A DNA stretch of 38,863 nt from Ignavibacteria bacterium (GTDB lineage Bacteria; Bacteroidota; Ignavibacteria; Tepidaquicellales; OLB5). Where the stretch lies: the NCBI GenBank assembly GCA_030835085.1, contig JAUQWQ010000065.1:1-38863 (forward strand). Direction: 5' to 3'. Each line of letters starts with the position of its first letter. Position 1 is the stretch's first letter. A program made the position numbers and the translations under genes. Shown here piece by piece: positions 32,518-38,850 of this stretch. The notes below the pieces were generated by a model. That model saw only the letters and a list, made by a program, of their open reading frames with translations. It searched no databases and was not told where the DNA came from.

Positions 32518-33810
32518 TTATCTGATCAGCATAAGCTTTCTTGTAATTCTGTTTTTATCTGTCTTCAGTCTATAGAAATATATTCCGCTAGACAGGTTTG
32601 TTCCGTCAAATTCCGTTTTATAGGAACCGGCATTTACTCTGCCCTGGTGCAAAACTTTTATAGTTTTACCCAGAATATCGGTGACCTCAAGTTTGATATC
32701 GCTGTATTCGGCAATATCAAATGTTATTATAGTTATTGGGTTAAAGGGATTCGGGTAATTTTGATAAAGATTAAATTTTCCGGGTATAATTGTACTGATA
32801 GGTATTATTCCAATTGGATCAGAATAACGGGCTATTTCACCATCACCGGTTACACCCCAGCCATGAACCACTGATAAAGAATTATCTCCCGGCGTTGAAA
32901 CAAAACTCAGATCACGGAAATCTTCTTCTGATACATTAGTAAATTGCAGAGAAAATGATGCTGCATTATTGGTTGAGCGGTATATACTGGGTCCGCTGGA
33001 ATAAAAATACTGCCCTGCAACATTTTCGAATGAGTAATACCTTCCTGTGTTTGGATAAGAACCCTGGAATATCCAGCCGGCTCCGCCGTTTACTGACATA
33101 AAGGGATCATCCCCCCCGCAAAGACCGTTTTGTGAACTTGAAAATGTTAATGATTGCATTGAAATATTTGTATCCGGGATGGAAAAACTCCATGACGTGC
33201 CTGTATTTGTGCTGTAAAATAAATGTCCCGTACTGGTACCAAACCATATAAATATTGGGTTCCCTACAGCTGACTGGAAAAGATGTGTGCAGTTTGGAAT
33301 AATCTGGCTGTTTGGATTAGGAGAGGGCGGTCTAGTTACAGATACTGTATCAAAGGAGTTACCGCCGTTTGTGGTTTTGAATATGAAATATTGATTGGCG
33401 ACAGGGTTGCCGAAAACAAAACCTGTAGTAGAATTAACAAATTGTATATCAGATAAAGTTACATTGCTCCTTGAAAACAAGGTCTGCCAGCTTAAGCCGC
33501 GGTTAGTTGATCTGAAAATCTTTCCTCCGCTTACATTGCTGACGACAATCGCAGTTGTTGGATCCATTCCATGCACACTATAAACATTGCTGGTGCCAAA
33601 TATGGCATTTGTCATATTGAACCAGTTATTACCACCATTGGATGTATATAATACTTTTCCCAATTCCCCTGTGGCCCAGGCAACATTTGCATCATATGCG
33701 TAGACTGAGAACATTACTCCCGGAGAGGGATTGATCTGGTTTACCCAAACCTGCGAATGTAAGTTGATAGCAGTAAACAGTAATATAACAGCAAAATAGC
33801 GGATTTTCAT
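32518..33810 (-). CDS. Secreted beta-propeller protein with T9SS sorting domain
   Basis: A signal peptide (1-20, ending LHSQ) is followed by repeated propeller blades of the BNR / photosynthesis-stability-factor kind, such as VLYTSNGGNNWFNMT, IFRSTNRGLSWQTLF and IFKTTNGGNSFDTV. The last 95 residues (336-430) are a type A sorting domain of the type IX secretion system: YQNYPNPFNP at 349-358, GSYKTEFDGTNLSSGIYFYRL, and terminal KLMLIR. The protein should cross the outer membrane and be attached or released. A GGAGG ribosome-binding site lies before the ATG. Binding partner unknown. Confidence 0.92.
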   Translation of the reverse strand: MKIRYFAVILLFTAINLHSQVWVNQINPSPGVMFSVYAYDANVAWATGELGKVLYTSNGGNNWFNMTNAIFGTSNVYSVHGMDPTTAIVVSNVSGGKIFRSTNRGLSWQTLFSRSNVTLSDIQFVNSTTGFVFGNPVANQYFIFKTTNGGNSFDTVSVTRPPSPNPNSQIIPNCTHLFQSAVGNPIFIWFGTSTGHLFYSTNTGTSWSFSIPDTNISMQSLTFSSSQNGLCGGDDPFMSVNGGAGWIFQGSYPNTGRYYSFENVAGQYFYSSGPSIYRSTNNAASFSLQFTNVSEEDFRDLSFVSTPGDNSLSVVHGWGVTGDGEIARYSDPIGIIPISTIIPGKFNLYQNYPNPFNPITIITFDIAEYSDIKLEVTDILGKTIKVLHQGRVNAGSYKTEFDGTNLSSGIYFYRLKTDKNRITRKLMLIR

Positions 33811-33919: not shown

Positions 33920-34747
33920 TTAAAAACCAAATCCAAAACCTGCACTTACTGAACTTGATTTGCCAAAACTGTAATCACCATTCAGATTAACCGGTCCGAG
34001 CTTTATATTCAATCCAACAATTGCCTTAATATTGTTATCGTTTTCGTAATTCATAATTGAAACAACATTATTGTAGTTTACTTTTACATCCATATTTGTC
34101 CTGTCATACTGCACTCCAGTATAGAACGTGAACACGCTTAGTTCTTTGCTTAACTGCAGATTTGCCGCGAAAGATGATGCAGTAACCAGATCTTTATCTT
34201 TTGAATCGCCAATTGATAGGTTATTTACTGAAAATCCTATCGCTATATCAATGGGTGATTTCTTAAAATGACTGGTTATTCCGTGTTTGATCCCAAATCC
34301 CCACATACCAACAGAGCCATATTGACCTATTTTTATTGAAGGAAGAAATCTTGCTGAAAATTCTGTGCCAAATACAGAGCCGACCTGTAACTGCGGTATA
34401 GCCATCGGAAGTATATCAAGTGTATTGTTCGCATCTTTAACAACCGGGTTATCGCCATTAACGTATGTACCCGTGCCCTTTATCCCGAAGTACAGGCTGA
34501 ACCCTTTTTTCACTTTTGCTGAATGAAAAAGACCTGAATTCATATCGGTGCTTACAGCATCTGCATATGGCTGCAGGACTTTCGTATCACCCGCTGAAAT
34601 AAATGTGAACATTACACCTTCAAGAGATTTGTTATCCTGAGAAAGTGTACTTAAGTTAGTTACAAATGAAAATACTATTACGGATAGTAATGTTGTAACG
34701 ATTCTTCCTGCTTTGAATGTTCTTTTTGAATTTGTTGAGTTTTTCAT
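33920..34747 (-). CDS. Predicted outer-membrane beta-barrel protein (DUF6588-like)
   Basis: The 275 residues start with a basic stretch and hydrophobic signal (about 15-36) ending TLSQ. The rest is made of alternating strands (for example SVGMWGFGIKHGIT, DIAIGFSVNNLSIG, VNLNGDYSFGKSSSVSAGFGF) and ends in phenylalanine, as outer-membrane barrels do. The layout resembles the Bacteroidota family DUF6588; the function is unknown. Its promoter contains two perfect CTGTAAG heptamers and a TATCTTTG box almost identical to those before the small ORF at 38504, implying joint control by the STAND-SARP regulator encoded between them. Confidence 0.82.
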   Translation of the reverse strand: MKNSTNSKRTFKAGRIVTTLLSVIVFSFVTNLSTLSQDNKSLEGVMFTFISAGDTKVLQPYADAVSTDMNSGLFHSAKVKKGFSLYFGIKGTGTYVNGDNPVVKDANNTLDILPMAIPQLQVGSVFGTEFSARFLPSIKIGQYGSVGMWGFGIKHGITSHFKKSPIDIAIGFSVNNLSIGDSKDKDLVTASSFAANLQLSKELSVFTFYTGVQYDRTNMDVKVNYNNVVSIMNYENDNNIKAIVGLNIKLGPVNLNGDYSFGKSSSVSAGFGFGF

Positions 34748-34800: not shown

Positions 34801-34847
34801 CAAAGATATCCTGAAAGCTTATTGCAGGACTTACAGCTTTCTTACAG
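34801..34847 (-). promoter_or_regulatory. Candidate SARP operator and promoter of the outer-membrane protein gene
   Basis: On the minus strand: CTGTAAG (34847-34841), 4 nt, CTGTAAG (34836-34830), 5 nt, CAATAAG (34824-34818), 9 nt, TATCTTTG (34808-34801). The 11-bp period and the position just upstream of the -7 box match how SARP activators bind. The ATG is 53 nt after the box. Confidence 0.8.
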
Positions 34848-34916
34848 AAAAAAGTGTTGAAATTTTTGGTTATTGCTAAGATTTGAGGATAATACCGTAA
34901 AAGGGTTGAGTGTGTT

Positions 34917-37900
34917 TTATGCTAATATTGACTGGATCCTGTTTAACAGTTCCTTCGGGGGTTTTTCGCCGTATTCTTCTTCATAATTCTTTAATAATTG
35001 TGAATTTTTCTTTTTTGCCATAGTTTCATTCCCAATGGCTTTATAAGCATATATTAGGTAATAAAATGCTTCTTCGTGAAGTTTATCAATTAGTAACAGC
35101 TTTTCTGAATAATTTATTAACTCTTCATATTTGTTTCTCTTTTTAAGGATTGCAAGCAGAATTTCCACGGTTTCTGTATATTTATGTGATAAAACTGAAC
35201 GCATTTCCTCTATCCACTCATCATAATACCCGGGCAGGAACTCTCCCCGGTATAACTCAATTGCTTTTTTTGCAAAACTTACTTTTTCATCATTATCAGT
35301 TTCCGGAGAGGTTACCCTGGCTGCAAGTTTATTGAACTCCAGTACATCTATGTTATACTTAAATTCAGGATCCATTTGCAGGATCTTATCTTCGTATACT
35401 ATGAAGGATGGAGATACTTCTGTTTTCGTGTTTTCTTTTTTTCCTGCTTTTTTCCCGGAACCGACTAAGGGAGAATTTGTTTTTATTACATTCCTTATGT
35501 TTGTAATAGCCTGGTGGAATATATTATCTGCGCTATCTGCGGATAGCTCGCTGAAAAAAATACCCAGAACTTTATCTTTTTGTATTCTCAGTCCCTGGTT
35601 TACCAGCAGATAAATCAGCAAAAGTTTGCTTTTTTTTCTGATCCAAAGGTCTTCAGTAACGCTATTGCCTCTCACTAAAATTTCAGTTCCGCCGAATGTT
35701 GTAAGTGTAATGTCATCCAAAACCGCAAATTCCCGGCTAAGTCTCATTTGGGATTTTGGTGATAACCACGGTAGTTCATTTCTTTCTGCAACAAGATTTT
35801 TTAAGTGATGAACAAAATCTGTCATTATCTTTTCATTTACAGCCATATCAAACAAGTATCTGAAATTAATAAAATGCTGAATCAAAAAAGAATAGTAATG
35901 ATTTCTATTTGCTGTTTCAAAGCTGTTTTTTAGAAAACTTAACGAAGTCTGAAGTTCACCTTTTCTGAAATAATGATCTGCCAGCTGGAATTGTACCTGT
36001 GAAATATCGTAAACAGACCGGGATTCTTCGTATTGTTTTAAAGTGTTGAGTAAGGTCTTTTCAGTTTTTGAGCCTGTGCCGGTATTTTTATCTATTAATG
36101 CTTTGTGATAATCAAGTTCCAGTTTAAGATATTCATCTTTAGGGTCCCTGTGTTTTTCAGCAATTTCAAGGTGCTCTTTGGATTTAGAATATTCTCCCAT
36201 TAACATGTGAGCTTCTGATAATATTAAATGATAAGTTAATGTGAATGAAACTATGTTATTCTTTTTATCCAGATTATTAAGGACACCCAATCCTTCAACA
36301 GCTCCTTCGTAATCACCGGCTTCAAATCTCAATAACGCATTTAATCTGATAAGGTCACGTTCCAGGTGGACCAGGTTATAACGTTTATATAATTGTTCTG
36401 ATTCATCATAGTATTCCTTTGCCTTTTTATAATCACCTGACCATGAGTGCAGAATTACAATGTCACTCAGCGTCTGGAACCTGCGGTATATGTTGTTTTC
36501 CCTGGCAAGGTTGCTTTCAAAGTAGTGCAGTGATTTCACAAATTCACCTTTATTAAGATGGATCCTGCCGTTGAGATTATAAATATTCGGGATGAATTTA
36601 TCAGTTTCATATTTACTGCTTATTTCCTCAGCTTCTTTCATGAGCAGTAATATTTCATCATAGTACTTTGAGCCAAGCCTGTAATAGCTCATTGCAAGAG
36701 AGATAATAATTTTTATTCTCAGCTCCGGTTCTGCATCAAGCTTATACAGCTCTTTAGATATATTCAATGCTTCATCAGGTTTGCCTGTAAGGCGGTATAT
36801 AACCGCCAATTCTGAATTAGCATTAATATATAGTGCAGTATTTACCGGCGAGTGTTTGATTATTTCATTGAAAATACCCGCAGCCTCTCCGGTATCATCT
36901 TTAAAAAAACTAAACAGCTTTCCTTTTATAAAAAGCAGGTCGTAATTACTGCTTAATGTTTCAGCCGGGAACTGGGCTATCCATCTTTTGAGTGATTCAA
37001 GCCTGGCGGCGCGCAGAAGATCATCAAAGTTACTGATAATAAGCTCTGCAGCCTTTGCGTAGCTGCCTGCTTCGAGGCTGAATTCAATTGCCTGAATATA
37101 GTCACCTTTGGTACTGTAATATTCATAGATATTTTCAGCAAGAGCTTTTACTTCACTCTCGCTTTTTGTTTCTCTCAGCTTCTTTTGCAGGAACTGCCTG
37201 AATAAATTGTGGTAACTGTAGGATGTTTCTGTTAAACCTGTTTCTGTGATATGCTGTGAAGATTCAACAAATAGGTTTTTCCTTACAAGCTCATCCAGTG
37301 TTTCTTTACAGCCGCTTAGACCAAGCACACTTTCGCAGATATCTGTTGTGAAGTTATCCAGCATTGAAGTTGTAAGGAGGAATTCCTTTGTATTTTCTTC
37401 AAGCTGGGCGAAAATATCCTCTGCAAAGTACCCGAAGATATCCTCATCGATCTGTTTGTTGCCGCCTGCGGCTTTTGCGAAATCAATACCGTATGCCTGC
37501 AGTACAAGGTGCAGACCTGTTATCCACCCTTCGATCTTTGCAAGCAGTTTATTCACGTCTTCCTTTTTACAGGAAATGGAATAAATATCTTTCAATAAAG
37601 ATTCAGTTTCATCCGCGGTGAAGTTAAGCTCATCGCTTTGAATTTTGGCAAGTCTCCTTTTGGCGGTAAGTTTTGCCATATTGAACCCGGGAGTGCTGCG
37701 CGTTGTAAAAATGATGTGAAGATTATCAGGAAAGTTATCGTTAAGCGCGTTGAAGATATCGTTAGTCCACCCGCTGCCCTCTATATTATGCAGGTCATCT
37801 ATCACCAGAGTAATATCTTCAGTAAAATCAGTTACAAATTCATTTACAAATGAACCTATTACAGTATTTATGGATGTGACTGCTTCCCTTGTAAACATAT

Positions 37901-38222
37901 CATTTACGGTAAGAGAATTGATAAGCTCCAGTGTGTTTTCGCCAAATGAACCATTGAGTTCCCTGAGACTGTGGATCAGGTAGCTTAACAATACTGAAGG
38001 ATTATCAATATCAGGACTTAAGTACAGCCATGCATACTTCTTTCCCGAGCTGTTCAGGTAATCCAGAACCGAAGTAGTTTTACCGTACCCGGCAGGTCCT
38101 ATCACCAAAATTATGTTTTTAGAGGCATTTTCTTCAAACTTTTTGTAAAGTCTCTGCCTGGAAACAATGTTTTCAGTGATCTTCTTTGGAATTATCCTCG
38201 TTTTTACAATGATTTGGCTCAT
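34917..38222 (-). CDS. Large STAND ATPase transcriptional regulator with C-terminal SARP (wHTH-BTAD) module
   Basis: The 1101-residue protein starts with a MalT-like NTPase domain: Walker A GPAGYGKTT (42-50), Walker B TLVIDDLHN (138-146) and the sensor FTTRSTP. The long middle (about 330-830) is made of TPR-type helical repeats that would receive a signal. The end has a winged-helix region (about 831-950, ITLTTFGGTEILV...SKLLLIYLLVNQG) and a bacterial transcriptional activator domain (about 955-1101, ELYRGEFLPGYYDEWIEE). SARP regulators of Streptomyces have this pair at the N-terminus; here it is C-terminal, replacing the LuxR domain of MalT. It is flanked on both sides by genes with SARP-type repeats. 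The inducing signal is unknown. Confidence 0.9.
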   Translation of the reverse strand: MSQIIVKTRIIPKKITENIVSRQRLYKKFEENASKNIILVIGPAGYGKTTSVLDYLNSSGKKYAWLYLSPDIDNPSVLLSYLIHSLRELNGSFGENTLELINSLTVNDMFTREAVTSINTVIGSFVNEFVTDFTEDITLVIDDLHNIEGSGWTNDIFNALNDNFPDNLHIIFTTRSTPGFNMAKLTAKRRLAKIQSDELNFTADETESLLKDIYSISCKKEDVNKLLAKIEGWITGLHLVLQAYGIDFAKAAGGNKQIDEDIFGYFAEDIFAQLEENTKEFLLTTSMLDNFTTDICESVLGLSGCKETLDELVRKNLFVESSQHITETGLTETSYSYHNLFRQFLQKKLRETKSESEVKALAENIYEYYSTKGDYIQAIEFSLEAGSYAKAAELIISNFDDLLRAARLESLKRWIAQFPAETLSSNYDLLFIKGKLFSFFKDDTGEAAGIFNEIIKHSPVNTALYINANSELAVIYRLTGKPDEALNISKELYKLDAEPELRIKIIISLAMSYYRLGSKYYDEILLLMKEAEEISSKYETDKFIPNIYNLNGRIHLNKGEFVKSLHYFESNLARENNIYRRFQTLSDIVILHSWSGDYKKAKEYYDESEQLYKRYNLVHLERDLIRLNALLRFEAGDYEGAVEGLGVLNNLDKKNNIVSFTLTYHLILSEAHMLMGEYSKSKEHLEIAEKHRDPKDEYLKLELDYHKALIDKNTGTGSKTEKTLLNTLKQYEESRSVYDISQVQFQLADHYFRKGELQTSLSFLKNSFETANRNHYYSFLIQHFINFRYLFDMAVNEKIMTDFVHHLKNLVAERNELPWLSPKSQMRLSREFAVLDDITLTTFGGTEILVRGNSVTEDLWIRKKSKLLLIYLLVNQGLRIQKDKVLGIFFSELSADSADNIFHQAITNIRNVIKTNSPLVGSGKKAGKKENTKTEVSPSFIVYEDKILQMDPEFKYNIDVLEFNKLAARVTSPETDNDEKVSFAKKAIELYRGEFLPGYYDEWIEEMRSVLSHKYTETVEILLAILKKRNKYEELINYSEKLLLIDKLHEEAFYYLIYAYKAIGNETMAKKKNSQLLKNYEEEYGEKPPKELLNRIQSILA

Positions 38223-38290
38223 CCCCGCAATTTAAGTGTGATTTATCAAACATTCAGTGCTTTTTCCAGTCATTTACCAGCCTATGCTAT

Positions 38291-38343
38291 GTCACCCCGT
38301 GCCGGACCCCGGGATCATTAGAGAATTGAACAGAGATCCCTGC
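38291..38343. repeat. Degenerate GC-rich palindromic repeat
   Basis: An imperfect GC-rich palindrome (GTCACCCCG ... CCCGGGATC) is followed by a second short arm, GGGATC (38311-38316) against GATCCC (38335-38340). The composition differs sharply from its AT-rich surroundings. It resembles a decayed copy of the interspersed palindromic repeats common in bacterial intergenic DNA. It lies 69-121 bp upstream of the STAND-SARP start codon. Confidence 0.4.
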
Positions 38344-38397
38344 CTTTAAAGAAATAACATACAGCATTTTAAATCATATAAACACAATAACTTAGAG

Positions 38398-38444
38398 CTG
38401 TAAGGAAGCTGTAAGGTTTACCCTAAGGTTCAGAAATATCTTTG
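38398..38444 (+). promoter_or_regulatory. Candidate SARP operator and promoter of the small-ORF pair
   Basis: Plus strand: CTGTAAG (38398-38404), 4 nt, CTGTAAG (38409-38415), 5 nt, CCCTAAG (38421-38427), 9 nt, TATCTTTG (38437-38444). Spacing is identical to that at 34801-34847. A minus-strand CTCTAAG (38391-38397) abuts it and could serve the divergent regulator gene. Confidence 0.8.
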
Positions 38445-38503: not shown

Positions 38504-38680
38504 ATGAAAAACACAGAAAACAAAAACACCAGAATAACCGCAAAGAACTTTAAGATAACAAAAATACAGTTCAGCTGGGAATTTAAAGGAAACGGCGATT
38601 TTTCACAGGAGCATAAAGAAATAGATTACAGAAGGTTTATCGAAAGAAATTACGTAAGCAAATCAAACCAGGATCTTTAA
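38504..38680 (+). CDS. Small charged protein, 58 residues, unknown
   Basis: The frame starts MKNTENKNTRITAKNFKITK and ends SKSNQDL. It is hydrophilic and lysine/asparagine-rich, with no signal peptide or membrane helix, and a central ITKIQFSWEFKGNGDF that could be a short beta hairpin. I do not recognise a family. The start is supported by AGGGG about 11 nt upstream and by a promoter 59 nt upstream that shares its repeats and -7 box with the outer-membrane protein gene. It is followed 38 nt later by a second small ORF. Confidence 0.65.
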   Translation: MKNTENKNTRITAKNFKITKIQFSWEFKGNGDFSQEHKEIDYRRFIERNYVSKSNQDL

Positions 38681-38718: not shown

Positions 38719-38850
38719 ATGAAAGCAATAAATTTTATAATAACAATGGTTCAGGGTTTTTTAGTAGCGGCTTACATATTATTCTACAATGTACAGTATT
38801 ACTGGTCGCTTAAATCAACAGTGCAAAATATAATAAGTTTGATATTCTAA
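38719..38850 (+). CDS. Small single-TM protein, 43 residues, unknown
   Basis: The frame begins MKAINFIITMVQGFLVAAYI and has one hydrophobic helix (about 5-26) followed by a tyrosine-rich junction (YNVQYYWS) and a short amphipathic tail ending in ISLIF. A GGGA motif lies 8 nt before the ATG. It probably shares the SARP-type promoter with the preceding ORF. It could be a membrane partner of that protein, a small regulator of a larger complex, or a toxin-like peptide; the sequence does not decide. Confidence 0.6.
   Translation: MKAINFIITMVQGFLVAAYILFYNVQYYWSLKSTVQNIISLIF

Follow-up and report, generated by a model that had tools for sequence, protein, structure and literature searches.

The window analysed here comprises 38,863 nucleotides of a contig (JAUQWQ010000065.1) from an Ignavibacteria bacterium of the phylum Bacteroidota. 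It encodes a large regulator of 1101 residues (34917-38222, minus strand), whose gene lies between two promoters carrying the same putative operator. Operator 1 (34801-34847, minus strand) faces a gene for a DUF6588 outer-membrane beta-barrel of 275 residues with a C-terminal Phe (33920-34747, minus strand), which starts 61 nt from the -7 box of the promoter. Behind it, probably in the same operon, is a gene for a BNR-like protein of 430 residues (32518-33810, minus strand) with the C-terminal domain of type IX secretion (T9SS) cargo (Por_Secre_tail, 1.6e-11). Operator 2 (38398-38444, plus strand) precedes two small genes, encoding a protein of 58 residues (38504-38680, plus strand) and a hydrophobic one of 43 residues (38719-38850, plus strand).

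The regulator consists of a MalT-type NTPase (residues 6-437), a TPR region and a C-terminal SARP module (residues 832-1101, i.e. 34920-35729). The first part matches the NCBIfam MalT model NF003420 (2.7e-59), at 201 bits against an equivalog cut-off of 537, and its Walker A (GPAGYGKTT, 42-50) and Walker B (DDLHN, 142-146) motifs are invariant in five orthologues. Pfam finds TPRs and a C-terminal BTAD domain (6.4e-9). It did not report a winged helix, and we therefore modelled residues 832-1101 with AlphaFold, using 30 homologues (pLDDT 89.9). The model aligns end to end with its best PDB matches, AfsR (Z 18.9 and 18.3) and EmbR (Z 17.7), which score clearly above structures matching by TPRs only (Z around 14 and below). 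The BTAD match and the model together give the order of a SARP module, an OmpR-type winged helix followed by BTAD. The NTPase profile, the BTAD domain and the modelled fold thus identify the protein as a STAND ATPase whose output module is a SARP, as the original prediction had it; the ATPase is of the MalT type. MalT, a STAND activator, shares the N-terminal NTPase but has a LuxR-type HTH as output, and no such C-terminal HTH is found here, where the C-terminus is a SARP. The order NTPase-TPR-SARP also departs from that of AfsR and PimR, in which the SARP is N-terminal and the NOD or LAL half follows. Three proteins of Chloroflexota (L172, L173 and L195, from Anaerolineales/Anaerolineae) align by tblastn over the whole span between NTPase and SARP region (about 5-1092 of the query), at 22-25% identity. 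Given such full-length similarity, the architecture as such is probably not unique.

The DUF6588 assignment (PF20230) has an E-value of 4.6e-44 and 151 bits against a gathering score of 27. The AlphaFold model shows a signal helix, short helices and about 10 strands, and Foldseek matches it to outer-membrane barrels, at modest TM-scores, in agreement with the barrel proposed originally. A literature search on DUF6588 gave nothing relevant. A protein of like size and kind to the 430-residue one also follows the DUF6588 gene in three other loci (L055, L057 and L058). The 58-residue protein has orthologues in three other genomes, with substitutions concentrated at codon position 3. Orthologues of the 43-residue protein, 81-86% identical, occupy the same place and show a similar excess at position 3 (e.g. 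7/1/15). To judge from this codon-position pattern, both small genes are real. The 43-residue protein is probably a membrane protein and has a paralogue of 44 residues elsewhere in the genome (67% identical here, 55-69% in relatives). The hydrophobic family to which it belongs matches no Pfam or NCBIfam model; nearly every genome of the bacterial family holds a further copy (here G000:C46:11720-11845), which adjoins a 756-aa gene where examined. The contig of the window shares an overlap of 141 identical bases with the start of contig C141 of the same genome, and from this the small-gene unit ends right behind the 43-aa gene. Contig C141 also carries two proteins of about 591 residues of one family (G000:C141:254-7027, L151), each divergent to a gene for a secreted-looking protein of about 480 residues. 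These look like another local set of regulators and surface proteins.

The two promoters share the 47-bp motif CTGTAAG-N4-CTGTAAG-N5-CNNTAAG-N9-TATCTTTG. In operator 1 the heptamers lie at 34841-34847, 34830-34836 and 34818-34824, and the -7 box TATCTTTG at 34801-34808; in operator 2 they lie at 38398-38404, 38409-38415 and 38421-38427, with TATCTTTG at 38437-38444. The third repeat is degenerate, with only TAAG fully kept, and the last TAAG is 9 bp from TATCTTTG in both. An 11-bp repeat period had been proposed; it holds for the first step in both operators, but the second step is 12 bp. The exact 30-bp repeat blocks (34818-34847, minus strand, and 38398-38427, plus strand) have an expectation of 0 in dinucleotide shuffles, and the two sites are 72% identical within the motif and 41% outside it, so that the claim of a shared, identically spaced motif in otherwise differing promoters is borne out. 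A scan of the 4.05-Mb genome with a 46-bp pattern, allowing up to 3 mismatches over the fixed positions, matched these two sites alone (reversed control 0); as anticipated, the motif is not scattered over the genome. At up to 1 mismatch it was absent from 394 other genomes sampled across the phylum, a sample free of other clade A genomes (clades are defined below). Two near-misses to the first 18 bp, on contigs C45 and C217, were rejected since they lie inside reading frames (judged by eye). Between the regulator gene and operator 2 there is also a GC-rich stretch, GTCACCCCGTGCCGGACCCCGGGATC (window 38291-38316). We discarded it as a repeat element because, even with up to 3 mismatches allowed, the genome contains a single copy.

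We analysed the conservation of this arrangement in a set of 148 genomes, and assigned regulators to clades with a quick tree of 39 homologues. Orthologues of the regulator (clade A), 47-60% identical, occur in four other genomes (G006, G008, G010 and G013). The motif is present in all four and flanks the regulator on both sides wherever the contig reaches; both its position beside STAND-SARP genes and its conservation upstream of orthologous genes had been predicted. Operator 1 is conserved before the DUF6588 gene in G006, G008, G010 and G013, and operator 2 before the pair of small genes in G006, G010 and G013. The conserved order has the 43-aa and 56-60-aa genes on one side of operator-regulator-operator and the DUF6588 and T9SS-type genes on the other. 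It recurs in G010 and G013 and, within the reach of their contigs, in G006 and G008, in surroundings that differ. Overall, the motif occurs in 5 of 5 genomes with a clade A regulator versus 1 of 143 others (Fisher test, 1e-8, on genomes that are phylogenetically non-independent). The exception, in G028, has 3 mismatches and lies about 2.4 kb from a diverged STAND-SARP gene. Among the 15 genomes of the family, DUF6588 is found in exactly the five with a clade A regulator. We rejected an intrinsic tie between DUF6588 and the motif, as DUF6588 occurs in 106 of the 148 genomes, mostly without it.

The likeness of the two promoters might reflect a recent duplication or chance resemblance of ordinary promoters, with no regulatory meaning. 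Both do contain a common sigma-A -7 box. Yet in four genomes only the motif is shared and not its flanks: over all pairs of the two promoter types in the five genomes, cross-promoter identity falls from 0.74 within the motif to 0.39 beyond it. Conserved in 8 or more of the 9 sites are CTGTAAG, TGTAAG, TAAG and TAT-TTTG-TA. Together with the null expectation from shuffles, the lack of a further site in the genome, and conservation across orthologues that have diverged to 47-60% identity, which contradicts it, this makes such an origin extremely improbable. Conservation of an operator within a clade is by itself weak evidence, because orthologous promoters share ancestry. What carries the argument is the likeness of two non-homologous promoters, along with the unlinked targets.

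Clade A regulators are also preceded by a conserved TAAATTGC (here 38227-38234, minus strand; conservation read by eye), a few bases before the regulator start. It is a putative -7-like box of the regulator's own promoter, similar to the TAnnTTGY box in the SM5 promoters of flavobacteria; the mRNA of the regulator may have almost no leader. We looked for a TAnnTTTG-type -7 box or an operator facing the regulator itself and found none.

The register of the repeats relative to the promoter suggests how they would work. The sigma-A -7 box of Bacteroidota has the consensus TAnnTTTG at -12 to -5 (PMC9723704), to which TATCTTTG at both sites and TATTTTTG in G013 conform. On this scale the heptamers fall at about -51/-45, -40/-34 and -28/-22, and repeat 2 occupies the expected place of the -33 element (read by eye). 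Direct repeats spaced by one or two helical turns, the last of them about 8 bp before the -10 box, are the geometry of SARP promoters; the present repeats agree with it, the 12-bp step being a deviation from 11 bp. AfsR of Streptomyces coelicolor has two repeats, at -40/-30 and -29/-19, and contacts the first 8 bp of each; its SARP dimer provides the docking site for sigma region 4, replacing a -35 contact (PMC10936776; structures 8hvr and 8k60). AfsR likewise combines SARP, STAND/NOD and TPR parts, its SARP fold matches the predicted one (Z 18-19), and repeats 2 and 3 here are in the same promoter register. It differs by its N-terminal SARP, by having two repeats instead of three, by a period of 11 bp throughout, and by a -10 box read with the sigma factor HrdB instead of TAnnTTTG. 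The extra repeat recalls PimR of Streptomyces natalensis, a SARP-LAL regulator whose operator has three heptamers with consensus CGGCAAG and 4-nt spacers (PMC5930380). PimR too is a large protein, with a SARP and a LAL/guanylate-cyclase-like ATPase half; its three direct heptamers match CTGTAAG at 5 of 7 positions, and its operator belongs to the promoter of pimM, a target gene close by. In contrast to the present system, its SARP is N-terminal, its operator does not overlap its -35 box, and its target is an antibiotic pathway regulator instead of envelope genes, in another phylum and at another promoter type.

We consider it very likely, from sequence comparison, that the adjacent STAND-SARP activates both flanking units through the triple repeats, by sigma adaptation and in a signal-dependent manner. 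The MalT-type ATPase and the TPR region would sense a signal, and the C-terminal SARP module would bind the triple heptamers head-to-tail. The protomers just upstream of the sigma-A -7 box would then stand in for the -33 element and dock sigma region 4 and RNA polymerase, as in AfsR. The protomers at repeats 2 and 3 would have this role, and repeat 1 would contribute cooperativity to the binding. By analogy with AfsR and MalT, the process presumably requires ATP and a ligand. The two divergent units, one with the DUF6588 barrel and the T9SS-secreted protein, the other with the 58-aa and 43-aa proteins, would thereby be switched on. Sigma adaptation appears the likeliest mechanism because the register of the heptamers matches that of AfsR and the triple repeat that of PimR. 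Co-occurrence, uniqueness and register support the activation of both units put forward in the original prediction, but activation itself, like binding, ATP or signal control and sigma adaptation by the regulator, is something we infer. The regulator might instead bind the repeats and repress both units until a signal releases them, since the sign of regulation is not fixed by sequence and the site overlaps the promoter. We regard this as unlikely: the SARPs characterised in PMC10936776 and PMC5930380 are activators that bind in the same register, and no obvious -33-like element is seen at the expected place, which would fit dependence on an activator.

Activation by the STAND-SARP is also in keeping with a wider family in which regulators and operators come in pairs. 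The generic pattern TAAG-N7/8-TAAG-N7/8-TAAG-N9-TAnnTTTG occurs at 18 places in the 148 genomes, versus one match of the reversed control, and mostly beside STAND-SARP genes. Matches in G095 and G106, which are not among the genomes with a STAND-SARP match, were treated as chance, in line with the single control match. The operators sort with the regulator clades when mapped on the quick tree. Clade A has CTGTAAG with spacing 11/12 (9 of 9 sites). Clade B (8 regulators) has GGTATA...GGTAAG with a spacing of 12 between the last two repeats, before a gene for a protein of about 109 residues. It includes the second STAND-SARP of this genome (G000:C21:63842-67305; L013:7843-11315), whose operator (GATAAG/GGTAAG, last spacing 12) lies in the promoter of a divergent gene for a 111-aa protein; this protein is a stand-alone T9SS sorting domain (PF18962, 1.9e-7) with no evident signal peptide. 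Clade C has TGATAAG with spacing 12/11, before a T9SS-type protein of about 560 residues or a lipoprotein of 172 residues. A different DNA-binding protein could read the repeats, the STAND-SARP gene being merely a neighbour, but this is very unlikely: the presence of the motif tracks the regulator clade, repeat flavour and spacing differ from clade to clade, and the repeat geometry is SARP-like.

The lipoprotein, of unassigned family, is encoded in seven genomes (L244-L250: G005:C414, G011:C72, G004:C40, G007:C16, G003:C131, G006:C251 and G010:C73), and all 7 genes have a clade C-type operator with 0-1 core mismatches. In G004, G005, G007 and G011 this gene and the regulator found in the same genome lie on separate contigs. 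Because these unlinked genes carry the matching operator, the clade C regulator likely acts in trans, at least as judged from the sequences; they are the best computational evidence for such action. The original prediction of a self-contained regulon had missed the T9SS-secreted 430-aa protein as a member of the unit, and self-containment does not hold generally, given that operators of a sister clade also precede an unlinked lipoprotein gene. In G003, a STAND-SARP homologue broken by stops (G003:C131:14679-17935) is directly upstream of the lipoprotein gene, which keeps its operator, with one core mismatch, despite the broken neighbour.

No triple-TAAG operator was recognisable near many of the more distant homologues (e.g. 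L065, L071, L073, L077-L079, L085 and L087-L092). The operator rule is therefore not universal in the family. Downstream of the clade D homologues L073, L077 and L079, CTGTCAG-N9-TAnnTTTG before small secreted peptides is a candidate. Secreted peptides of 57-83 residues from another family of the order (L083, L086, L157 and L158, in G028, G022, G018 and G033) also lie behind similar repeat promoters, and several are Gly/Asp-rich near the C-terminus (DGSGG).

SARP control by tandem heptamers is known and has been described mainly for antibiotic genes of Streptomyces. Our literature searches, largely of non-subscription journals, gave nothing relevant on SARP or BTAD proteins in Ignavibacteria or Chlorobi, which agrees with the initial statement that no description of such a system was known for this lineage. 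New with respect to that literature is the use of SARP control in Ignavibacteria by STAND proteins with a C-terminal SARP, where the promoter is of the TAnnTTTG type, the operators are specific to clades and the targets belong to the envelope. It is possible, though we advance it only tentatively, that Ignavibacteria expanded these regulators into parallel circuits within one cell, insulated from each other by private triple-heptamer operators, each monitoring some state of the envelope or type IX export. This idea comes from the predicted targets, which include barrels, lipoproteins, T9SS cargo, small secreted peptides and a stand-alone T9SS sorting domain with no signal; the latter could itself be a sensed or competing ligand.

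These results provide a predicted, sequence-derived regulon of a STAND regulator for a lineage from which no example was known. They suggest that the replacement of the sigma -35 contact by a SARP extends beyond actinobacteria, to a Bacteroidota-type promoter. The clade-specific heptamers, of which two flavours are found in one genome, are natural material for deciphering a SARP recognition code. Finally, the operators offer a handle on targets among uncharacterised genes for surface proteins, such as DUF6588 barrels, T9SS cargo and small proteins.
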